Shown: piece after piece, positions 10,119 through 61,833 of the stretch | How positions within the stretch are numbered: position 1 is the first letter of the stretch | Layout of the letters: every line of letters begins with the position of its first letter | Program-made: the position numbers and the translations under genes | Assembly (NCBI RefSeq): GCF_000331735.1 | Contig: NC_020126.1 | Location: forward strand, 2,728,001 to 2,792,000 | Source of the DNA: Myxococcus stipitatus DSM 14675 | Lineage (GTDB): Bacteria > Myxococcota > Myxococcia > Myxococcales > Myxococcaceae | Direction: 5' to 3' | DNA length: 64,000 nucleotides | The notes under the pieces: model-generated | Database searches by the model: none | The model's input: only the letters and a program-made list of their open reading frames with translations | What the model was told of the DNA's origin: nothing

Positions 10119-10468
10119 TCATCTTTGCCAGACGGGGCCGGAGTGGTCCTCTCATCCTGGCAAGGAATTGGTGCTGCTCTTTGGCATGGTTGATTGGCAT
10201 TCTGCCAGTGAAAAGCAGGTGCCGACGCTGTTCTGATTGCGGTGGAGGATTCCTGTGCCGCCGTGGCGCGCGTGCGGGCCAGGGCGCCGTCTCGAATTGT
10301 GAGGAGCTGGTTCGAGAGGGCTGTCAGTCTTTGAGGGCCTCAAAGGACAGCACCTCGAAGTGTGCTGTTTGACAGGGAATGCACCCGCGCGGGCCTCGCT
10401 GCTCGCGAGGACGGCCTGGCCCGAGAGGCTTCAGGCCCTCCGCTCCCTGCGGCGGGGATGCTGTCGCC
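10119..10468. other. Intergenic region upstream of protease and downstream of HxlR gene
   Basis: No gene seen. It should hold the promoter of the metalloprotease gene (minus strand) and the 3' end of the HxlR transcript. Its notable contents are the GCAAGGAATTG element at 10160-10170 and the overlapping hairpins at 10321-10368. Confidence 0.5.
10321..10368. terminator. Two overlapping, mutually exclusive hairpins
   Basis: Hairpin A is CTGTC-agt-CTTTGAG-ggc-CTCAAAG-GACAG (10321-10350). Hairpin B pairs ACAGCAC (10347-10353) with GTGCTGT (10362-10368) and is followed on the plus strand by TTT. They share 10347-10350, so both cannot form fully at once. The site is about 120 bases beyond the HxlR stop. 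A terminator is the simplest reading. Confidence 0.35.
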
Positions 10469-10834
10469 TCAGCTGACCTGCGGAGCTGCCCAGGAGAAGG
10501 CGGCGGGCTCGTCGCGCTTCCTCACGTGCCGGGTCCCCCACTCGGAGAGTGCATGGACCGCGATGTTGAGCTCCAGGCCACTCTCCGTGAGTGAGTACTC
10601 GACGCGGGGAGGATTCTCTCCCGCATCCTCGCGATGAACGAGCCCCTCCGCCTCGAGCTCCCGGAGCTGTTCGAAGAGGACCTTCTCGCTGATTCCGCCG
10701 ACCCGCCGGCGCAGCTCCCCGAAGCGCAGGGGCTCTGCGTGGAGCATCCAGAGAATCGTGGCCTTCCACTTGCCGTGGATGACCGCCAACGCCGCGGAGA
10801 GGCCGCACGTCTGGTGCTGGGCGGGCTTGCTCAT
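10469..10834 (-). CDS. HxlR-family transcriptional regulator (copy 1)
   Basis: 121 residues, usual for the family. C-G-L near residues 10-12, the G-K-W-K winged-helix entry near 20, R-F-G-E-L-R-R-R near 37, and G-I-S-E-K-V-L-F-E-Q-L-R-E-L-E near 46-60 are the MarR-like HxlR hallmarks. The Cys near position 10 is where redox-sensing members (YodB, HypR type) carry their reactive Cys. It is divergent from the imine-reductase-like gene at 10956, with a palindrome between, so it probably represses both. A paralogous pair in the same arrangement lies at 60471-61833. Confidence 0.92.
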   Translation of the reverse strand: MSKPAQHQTCGLSAALAVIHGKWKATILWMLHAEPLRFGELRRRVGGISEKVLFEQLRELEAEGLVHREDAGENPPRVEYSLTESGLELNIAVHALSEWGTRHVRKRDEPAAFSWAAPQVS

Positions 10835-10859
10835 CGAGGAATGACCCTTTCAAACTGAC

Positions 10860-10877
10860 ACTTACGAAATTGTAAGT
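10860..10877. promoter_or_regulatory. Inverted repeat in HxlR/imine-reductase divergent promoter (copy 1)
   Basis: ACTTAC-GAAATT-GTAAGT, with 6-bp perfect arms. The downstream bases TACTTG are also almost shared with the second copy at 60853. The position between divergent genes and the match to the A/T-rich GTAAG-type sites reported for HxlR proteins make this the probable operator. Confidence 0.7.
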
Positions 10878-10955
10878 ACTTGTTATCACTACGGCGGCCG
10901 CTCATTTTGCTCCCGTCGCGCGCTCGAGAGCCGAGCCGCATCCAGGAGCATAATC

Positions 10956-11825
10956 ATGAGCGAAGTTTCAGTCATCGGATTGGGCGAGATGGGGACCGCG
11001 CTGGCGGCGGCACTGGTTCGCCACGGGAAGAAAGTCACCGTGTGGAACAGGTCGCCGGAGAAGGCCGCGGCACTCGTCGCGGCTGGCGCGCTGCTCGCGC
11101 CCGACTCCGCCGCCGCGATTCGCGCGAGCCCTGTCGTCATCCTCTGTGTCTCGAACTACGCCGCGACGCGCGCCATCCTGGAGCCCACGGACGTTTCGAG
11201 CGGGCTGCCTGGCAAGCTCGTCGTGCAGCTCAGCACGGGGACTCCGAAGGAGGCTCGCGAGCTCGAGACGTGGGTTCAGGCGCGGTCCGCGCGCTACGTC
11301 GACGGCGCGATTCTCGCGTGGCCGCGACAGATAGGCGGCGCCGATGCCGTCATCCTCGTCTCGGGCTCGGCCGAGGCGCAGGCCCAGGGGCACAGCCTGC
11401 TCAGCCTCCTCGCGGGGGGACTGACGTCCATGGGGCCGGAGGTCGGAGCGTCGTCGTCGCTCTTCGCGGCGGTGCTGGCGTACCTCGCCGGGCGCTGGAT
11501 TGGACTCAGCCATGGCGCGCTCATCTGCGAAGCCGAAGGGCTCGATGTCGCCGCGTACGGGGCGCTGCTCGCGAACCTCGCGCCGATTCTGGGGCAGGAT
11601 GCGAAGCACATGGGAGACGTGATTGCGAAGAATGCCTTCACCTCGCCGGAGAGCACGCTGCGCACGGCGGCCGGGGACATCTCCGGGCTCATGCGGCACT
11701 CACAGGAAGCACGCATCAACGGCGAGTTTCCTCGGTTCGCGGCGGACCTGTTCGCACGCGCCGTCCGAGCGGGACATGGCGCGGAGGAACATGCCGCCAT
11801 CATCAAGGTCCTCCGCCAGGCGTAA
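10956..11825 (+). CDS. NAD(P)-binding imine-reductase-like dehydrogenase (copy 1)
   Basis: 289 residues; AGGAG 7 bases before the ATG. V-I-G-L-G-E-M-G-T-A-L at residues 5-15 is the Rossmann dinucleotide loop, and V-W-N-R-S at about 30-34 suggests NADP preference (Arg after the second strand). V-Q-L-S-T-G-T-P-K-E-A-R near 90 and G-A-I-L-A-W-P near 118 are typical of the 6-phosphogluconate/beta-hydroxyacid dehydrogenase superfamily, in the branch containing imine reductases. The helical C-terminal domain starts near 165. It probably reduces a cyclic imine or related carbonyl; the substrate is unknown. It is controlled by the divergent HxlR gene. Confidence 0.85.
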   Translation: MSEVSVIGLGEMGTALAAALVRHGKKVTVWNRSPEKAAALVAAGALLAPDSAAAIRASPVVILCVSNYAATRAILEPTDVSSGLPGKLVVQLSTGTPKEARELETWVQARSARYVDGAILAWPRQIGGADAVILVSGSAEAQAQGHSLLSLLAGGLTSMGPEVGASSSLFAAVLAYLAGRWIGLSHGALICEAEGLDVAAYGALLANLAPILGQDAKHMGDVIAKNAFTSPESTLRTAAGDISGLMRHSQEARINGEFPRFAADLFARAVRAGHGAEEHAAIIKVLRQA

Positions 11826-12069
11826 CGACAGTCAGGCGTGGAGGGCAGGGAGGGGCACTTCGAGGGGCGCACTCGCCACCTACCTGTGCTCACCTCTGCC
11901 TCGTGACCGAGGCGACACCCTTCCCGCCGAGAGGCCAGCCTGGCTCGAAGCCACCTCTCGGCGGAATGTGCCCTCTAAAGTTCCAGGAAAGTCCGCTGCG
12001 CCTCGTGCGTAGAGACGGCGCACTCTCGACGAAGGTGTTGCGCGAATGGGGTTCGACAGGAAGGTCATC

Positions 12070-60470: not shown

Positions 60471-60827
60471 TCATTTCGAGTCGATGGGCTCAGGGAAACC
60501 CCTTACGTGCGAGGCGTGAGCCCGTCCCCACTCCACCAAGGTCCGCACGGCCTCGGTGAGTGCCATCCCCGTGGGTGTGAGGGAGTACTCCACGACCTTG
60601 GGCGGTTCCGGGTCGAGCACCGTCCGGTGGACCACTCCGGTGGCTTCGAGCTCACGGAGTTGCTCGAACAGGACTTTCTCGCTGATACCGAAGACCCGGC
60701 GCTTGAGCTCCGCGAAGCGGGTAGGGCCGTGATGCAGCTCACACAGGATCGGCGACTTCCACTTGCCGCCGATGACCGACAGCGCCGCGTGAAGTCCACA
60801 GTCCCGAGGGGTCGATCTCCTCACCAT
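60471..60827 (-). CDS. HxlR-family transcriptional regulator (copy 2)
   Basis: 118 residues from ATG 60827 (AAGAGGAGAAG upstream); an upstream start at 60848 is less likely. D-C-G-L near 9-12, G-G-K-W-K near 20, R-F-A-E-L-K-R-R near 37 and G-I-S-E-K-V-L-F-E-Q-L-R-E-L-E follow copy 1 almost line by line. It keeps the N-terminal Cys. Divergent from imine-reductase copy 2, with a perfect palindrome between. Confidence 0.92.
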   Translation of the reverse strand: MVRRSTPRDCGLHAALSVIGGKWKSPILCELHHGPTRFAELKRRVFGISEKVLFEQLRELEATGVVHRTVLDPEPPKVVEYSLTPTGMALTEAVRTLVEWGRAHASHVRGFPEPIDSK

Positions 60828-60852
60828 CACTTCTCCTCTTCGCCACACGGTC

Positions 60853-60868
60853 CTTACAAATTTGTAAG
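60853..60868. promoter_or_regulatory. Perfect 16-bp palindrome, HxlR operator (copy 2)
   Basis: CTTACAAATTTGTAAG is a perfect dyad and matches the copy 1 element (CTTAC, A/T core, GTAAG) at the same relative position; both are followed by C-or-T then ACTTG. It is the probable operator of the second HxlR/imine-reductase unit. Confidence 0.8.
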
Positions 60869-60942
60869 CACTTGTCCCATCGCGAAATCTAGCCGAGTAA
60901 CAGCGAGACGCATTTCGCGCAGCTCAACCAAGGACAGCAGAC

Positions 60943-61833
60943 GTGAGCACGCATCAGAGCGATGTGACGGTCATGGGCCTGGGCAGGATGGGAACAGCCC
61001 TGGCGAGTGCATTCCTGCGCGCCGGGCGCCGGGTGACGGTGTGGAACCGCACCGCGCATCGCGCCCGACCCCTGCGCGACTCAGGTGCCGTGTTCGAGTC
61101 CAGCGTCGCGGTCGCGATTCAGGCCAGTCCCCTGGTGGTGGTGTGCGTGTCCGATGTCCCCGCCACCTGGGCCATTCTCGGTGCGCCGGCCGTCGCGTCG
61201 GCGCTGGCGGGGCGCACGGTGGTGCAGCTCAGCTCCAGTACGCCAGGGGAGGCGCGGGACCTGGATGCATGGGTCCGCGCTCAGGACGCGGACTTTCTCA
61301 GTGGTGCCATCCTGGCCTGGCCGAGCCAGGTGGGCACCGAACAGGCCTCCCTCATCGTTGCGGGACCCAACGCGGTGTTGCGGCGCCATGAGGCCATGCT
61401 CCGCTCCTTGGTAGGGACGCTCGAGCATGCCGGCGAGGAGATAGGCGCGGCCTGCGCCCTGTGCGCGGCGGTGCTGTCATACATGGCCGGGCACTGGATT
61501 GGCTTCGTCCATGGCGCGCGCATCTGTCAGGCCGAGGGGCTGAAGCTCTCCGACTTCGGTGAGGCGCTGGCGGCCTTCGCCCCGGGCCTCGGGCAGGATG
61601 CTCGGCACATGGCGCGGGTCATCGACACGGGTCACTACGCCCATCCCGAGACCTCGCTGACGACGGTGGCCAACGATATCGCCCGGTTGGTCCAGGTCTC
61701 GCGAGAGGACGAGCTCAGTTCCACGTGGCCGCGTTTCGCTTCCGGCCTCTTCCGCCAGGCCATCGATGCGGGACTCGGCGCCGAGGAGACCGCCGCCGTG
61801 TTCAAGGTGCTGCACGAGGAGGTCATGCCCTGA
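60943..61833 (+). CDS. NAD(P)-binding imine-reductase-like dehydrogenase (copy 2)
   Basis: 296 residues; GTG start with AAGGA about 9 bases upstream. V-M-G-L-G-R-M-G-T-A-L at 10-20, V-W-N-R-T near 36, V-V-Q-L-S-S-S-T-P-G-E-A-R near 95, G-A-I-L-A-W-P-S-Q near 122 and H-W-I-G-F-V-H-G-A near 185 match copy 1 residue for residue. The helical C-terminal domain is also shared. The N-terminus has extra residues. It probably reduces a related imine or carbonyl; regulated by copy 2 HxlR. Confidence 0.85.
   Translation: MSTHQSDVTVMGLGRMGTALASAFLRAGRRVTVWNRTAHRARPLRDSGAVFESSVAVAIQASPLVVVCVSDVPATWAILGAPAVASALAGRTVVQLSSSTPGEARDLDAWVRAQDADFLSGAILAWPSQVGTEQASLIVAGPNAVLRRHEAMLRSLVGTLEHAGEEIGAACALCAAVLSYMAGHWIGFVHGARICQAEGLKLSDFGEALAAFAPGLGQDARHMARVIDTGHYAHPETSLTTVANDIARLVQVSREDELSSTWPRFASGLFRQAIDAGLGAEETAAVFKVLHEEVMP

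Follow-up and report, generated by a model that had tools for sequence, protein, structure and literature searches.

Two HxlR/imine-reductase-like modules of Myxococcus stipitatus share an operator and probably arose by separate routes

Background

Regulators of the HxlR family have been found to act in both directions on their target genes. HxlR of Bacillus subtilis regulates positively and HypR becomes active on thiol modification (PMC6943732), whilst YodB and CatR (PMC6943732) and RrpB (PMC8765430) are repressors. HypR, YodB and CatR detect thiol-reactive compounds by means of an N-terminal cysteine (PMC6943732). RrpA and RrpB bind inverted repeats that lie between their own genes and divergent reductase genes, with RrpA raising the transcription of the divergent mdaB (PMC8765430). 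A search of a literature library found no paper that connects HxlR regulators with imine reductases (IREDs).

Two such pairs, here called modules A and B, lie in the window, a stretch of 64,000 nucleotides of the Myxococcus stipitatus DSM 14675 genome. It is probable that both are self-contained inducible units of HxlR regulator, operator and IRED-like enzyme, module B having been inherited vertically and module A gained separately.

Organisation of the two modules

The features of module A are:

10280 to 11869: the whole extra interval, replaced by 231 bp in genome G009 and by about 140 bp in G014
10469 to 10834, minus strand: HxlR regulator of 121 aa, PF01638 at 97.6 bits, Cys10 its sole N-terminal cysteine
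10861 to 10876: operator palindrome CTTACGAAATTGTAAG, 27 bp 5' of the HxlR start, one mismatch from perfect
10877 to 10882, plus strand: TACTTG tail, on the enzyme side only, a candidate -35 element of the enzyme promoter
10956 to 11825, plus strand: IRED-like enzyme of 289 aa, PF03446 (NAD_binding_2) and PF21761 (RedAm-like_C), with Phe170 at the catalytic-Asp position

Those of module B (60471 to 61833) are:

60471 to 60827, minus strand: HxlR regulator, PF01638 at 95.0 bits, with an N-terminal and a second cysteine, its start re-assigned to ATG 60827
60853 to 60868: operator CTTACAAATTTGTAAG, a perfect palindrome, 26 bp 5' of the HxlR start
60869 to 60874, plus strand: CACTTG tail, the counterpart of 10877 to 10882 in module A
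60943 to 61833, plus strand: IRED-like enzyme of 296 aa, PF03446 and PF21761, with Cys at the catalytic-Asp position

The open reading frame listed for the regulator of B (60471 to 60848, minus strand) begins at GTG 60848. ATG 60827 is the more likely start, as it is preceded by a GAGGAG ribosome-binding site and gives a distance to the palindrome comparable with that in A and in the orthologues.

According to an earlier note on this DNA, each locus pairs an HxlR gene on the minus strand with an IRED gene on the plus strand, in the same spacing class, across a CTTAC-N6-GTAAG palindrome with [CT]ACTTG behind it; the coordinates and the Pfam matches agree with this. The modules are also homologous part by part as that note proposed, sharing Pfam domains, with 58% identity between the regulators (over 114 aa) and 49% between the enzymes (over 287 aa). 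The operators have 19 of 24 bases in common and the recognition helix of the regulators, GISEKVLFEQLRELE, is the same in both; outside the operators the two intergenic regions gave no convincing alignment. With the same helix and near-identical operators, cross-regulation between A and B is plausible.

Both regulators match PF01638 over the whole domain and well above the curated cut-off of 20.8 bits. The nearest named NCBIfam models are those for RrpA and RrpB (NF047367 and NF047364), which the two proteins do not pass, scoring 54-70 bits against cut-offs of 175-185. The N-terminal cysteine is present in A, in B and in 35 of 36 aligned homologues.

The operator within and beyond the genome

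In the window the palindrome pattern gave four strand matches (two sites) where 0.30 were expected from shuffles. Over the whole 10.35-Mb genome CTTACN6GTAAG has exactly two sites, which are those at the promoters of A and B, a point on which the reading of the earlier note is supported. The number itself is at chance level (about 2.2 expected from base composition, and two for a reversed control pattern), so it is the placement of the sites and not their count that is non-random: the probability of both falling by chance inside the two gaps of ~120 bp between HxlR and IRED genes is about 5e-10. When the palindrome and its ACTTG tail were searched together, allowing up to 3 mismatches, perfect matches were again confined to A and B, with two sites elsewhere in the genome at 3 mismatches. 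A genome-wide regulon could be dismissed, as the extended pattern gives no further perfect site, and so could an operator at the other HxlR genes of this genome, where the best matches have 2-6 mismatches.

Within one clade of the regulator tree (14 rows, support 100/99), nearly all members have the element, mostly 15-28 bp 5' of the HxlR start, and they come from Myxococcota, Alphaproteobacteria and Gammaproteobacteria. The divergent order of HxlR, operator and IRED is found in A and B, in loci L059, L060, L061, L069, L085 and L087 and in four relatives within the genus. At L085 and L087 the operator is present beside a partner enzyme of a different IRED clade that has the usual catalytic Asp, which indicates that the operator follows the regulator. 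Because the operator is carried along with its regulator, two modules of one genome may look alike and have matching operators without being copies of one another. The palindrome is not exclusive to HxlR genes, since in other Myxococcota ACTTACN6GTAAGT also occurs beside TetR-like genes and beside genes that are unrelated; at L114 and L121 it adjoins genes judged by eye to encode TetR-like regulators. A further type of HxlR/IRED pair, with a different box (CAGTACCCGATAAAA...CGGTACTTG), was seen at L139 in G009 and L140 in G012.

The enzymes

Both enzymes carry the NAD_binding_2 domain and the RedAm-like C-terminal domain above cut-off. The best PDB matches of the module A enzyme are imine reductases, and neither enzyme is close to a solved structure. 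A model of the A enzyme has a pLDDT of 95.6 and a TM score of 0.95 to 5OCM, although, as homologues went into building it, it says little more than the sequence match. The same genome also encodes a known imine reductase: the product of the gene at 2184337-2185197 (L004, G000:C1) matches 6TO4, the (R)-imine reductase of M. stipitatus (IRED-Ms), with 100% identity over 291 aa, so that A and B are two further members of the superfamily there. This match by itself places the host in M. stipitatus or very near to it. IRED-Ms has the same fold as A (TM 0.90-0.91) at about 31-32% identity.

Where IRED-Ms and A differ is in the catalytic residue. Family members are recognised by the residue at standard position 187, which is Asp or Glu in the D-type and Tyr in the Y-type, and A and B have none of these. 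This position, Asp171 in IRED-Ms, is Phe170 in A and Cys in B, and is occupied by F, C, S, A or G in 16 of 16 members of the clade that holds both enzymes. Position 178, corresponding to W179 of IRED-Ms, a proposed alternative donor, is Ala in all 16. Since the sister group of the clade has kept the usual Asp, the loss is most simply a single derived event. Tyr176, Trp181 and Asp241 are invariant in the clade, and Asp at 241 is found in just one of 55 sequences that have Asp at the canonical place. This pattern of residues leaves room for a proton donor that has moved or for another substrate.

It might be supposed that these enzymes keep the IRED fold and reduce some other substrate, or have lost catalysis altogether, and we place this only a little below an even chance. 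The absence of an acid from the catalytic position throughout the clade, together with Ala178, points this way, as does the saturation mutagenesis of the M. stipitatus enzyme, in which replacements of D171 had little or no activity (PMC9297850). The cofactor motif and the invariant Tyr176, Trp181 and Asp241 speak against dead enzymes, however, and an imine reductase without the Asp has been mentioned (PMC7540600). A more specific proposal, doubtful though it is, would make this an apparently undescribed, HxlR-controlled clade of imine reductases in which Asp241, with Tyr176 and Trp181, gives the proton. Asp241 lies at about standard position 259, within a segment of the M. stipitatus enzyme that has been the target of engineering for stereoselectivity. 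The authors of work on RedE point out that acidic residues in this C-terminal region may act as structural contacts (PMC10851217), and Asp241 may therefore be non-catalytic.

Regulators of other families are found beside related enzymes, with a TetR gene in place of HxlR adjoining an enzyme of the same clade in Reyranella and Ensifer, and AraC or LysR genes adjoining the sister group. The clade enzyme of Alkalilimnicola (L069, 4001-4860) is read in two frames, from a frameshift or a sequencing error. A clade of this kind, whose regulator recurs, whose operator can be recognised and whose enzymes lack the canonical acid, offers a handle both on the inducer, by way of HxlR, and on the catalytic mechanism.

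Regulation of the modules

In each locus the gene of a one-domain HxlR regulator diverges from that of a predicted NAD(P)H-dependent enzyme of the imine reductase family, and a dimer of the regulator would bind CTTAC-N6-GTAAG between the two genes. The operator lies 26-27 bp from the regulator start and against the probable TTG of the enzyme promoter, and because of this position near both genes one bound dimer could control the two. A reactive small molecule may modify the N-terminal Cys, or bind beside it, and by altering DNA binding turn the enzyme on. A thiol-reactive or imine-forming compound would in this way release the dimer or reshape it on the operator, and the enzyme would then reduce a C=N (or related) bond of the inducing compound or of its product. 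Homology, gene arrangement, the conservation of the operator, the orthology of B and the empty site of A were observed directly; repression, the cysteine switch, what the enzyme reduces and which way a transfer went are what we infer, with sensing, polarity and substrate read from HypR, YodB, CatR and RrpA/RrpB. The modules may serve in detoxification or biosynthesis, as the earlier note had suggested.

To the right of the palindrome NA[CA]TTG is kept in 12 of 13 homologous loci. As the TTG is conserved, and on the enzyme side only, this suggests that it is a promoter element. A consensus search for a sigma-70 promoter found none, and on the enzyme side no good -10 box was seen, the best candidates being weak; the position of the operator relative to RNA polymerase is thus uncertain and activation is possible, as with B. 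subtilis HxlR and HypR.

The regulator could accordingly activate the enzyme gene while repressing its own, which we hold to be possible, if on balance improbable. If the conserved TTG is a -35 element the palindrome would sit just upstream of it, a typical position for an activator, and the precedents of HxlR, HypR and RrpA are of this kind. Against this, the operator can be placed only loosely while the promoter itself is not located, and YodB, CatR and RrpB of the same family are repressors. Of the two, repression is slightly favoured.

Origin of modules A and B

Four other species of the genus have orthologues of module B, palindrome included, with identities for HxlR and enzyme of 88 and 85% in G009, 74 and 78% in G008, 73 and 74% in G020 and 67 and 65% in G003. 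Its left neighbour is unchanged in G009 and G008, and B is missing from its site in G014. The enzyme tree places it in a clade of the genus (100/100). From gene order and phylogeny, B is the older unit, vertically inherited in part of the genus.

For module A no orthologue was found in 26 other genomes of the genus. Its site is empty in two close relatives, G009 and G014, where flanks 87-92% identical on both sides enclose the short sequences listed above in place of ~1590 bp. In the enzyme tree A groups with enzymes of Rhizobiales, Lysobacter and Boseaceae (Pseudomonadota), with support of 95/92; the regulator tree does not settle where A belongs. Read together, empty sites and enzyme tree make it most likely that A was gained laterally by this species, separately and already assembled. 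A foreign base composition was ruled out, the G+C of A being the same as that of the genome; any transfer would thus have happened long ago or have come from a donor whose composition was similar. No convincing mobile-element ends or long repeats were found around A.

The earlier note took the modules for paralogues of one ancestral module. Homology stands, and duplication in this lineage does not: the trees that it called for do not join A and B as sister pairs, the nearest kin of B being its orthologues in the four other species, and a recent duplication, with A and B alone together, is rejected by the AU test (p 9.7e-45 for the enzymes, 4e-79 concatenated with HxlR). The opposite case that it named, distant clades with unrelated operators, was not seen either, as the operator is common to A and B; it is so because the element belongs to the whole HxlR clade and not through local duplication.

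An ancient duplication, which would have made A and B out of one module before the genus radiated or early in that radiation, with A surviving in this genome alone, is unlikely: the AU test does not reject A as the sister of the whole B clade (p 0.145 for enzymes, 0.18 concatenated), the regulator tree would allow it and modules do decay in the genus, but the best enzyme tree has A among Pseudomonadota and its absence from 26 other genomes would require many independent losses. Separate gain of A remains the preferred reading.

Genome G006 has two decaying B-like HxlR/IRED modules (L141 and L142), two broken copies of which one loses enzyme similarity to B after about 41 residues and the other runs from the operator directly into the last 27 codons of the enzyme; such units would appear to be gained and lost readily. 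In G003 the B orthologue (L021/L143) has two tandem HxlR genes after one operator.

Comparison with known systems

Modules A and B resemble the systems of HypR, YodB, CatR and RrpA/RrpB in having a one-domain winged-helix regulator with an N-terminal Cys, an inverted-repeat operator and an oxidoreductase as neighbour. They differ from them in that the partner is an enzyme of the imine reductase family and the operator is CTTAC-N6-GTAAG, with sensing in A and B proposed by analogy. Pairs of HxlR and NAD(P)-binding oxidoreductase genes on Streptomyces and Tsukamurella plasmids are divergent and have the same gene order as A and B. Their operators are variants, such as GTAAGTACC...GTGGGTACT, and their enzymes belong to other clades; variant boxes are likewise found at the more distant HxlR/IRED pairs of Streptomyces.
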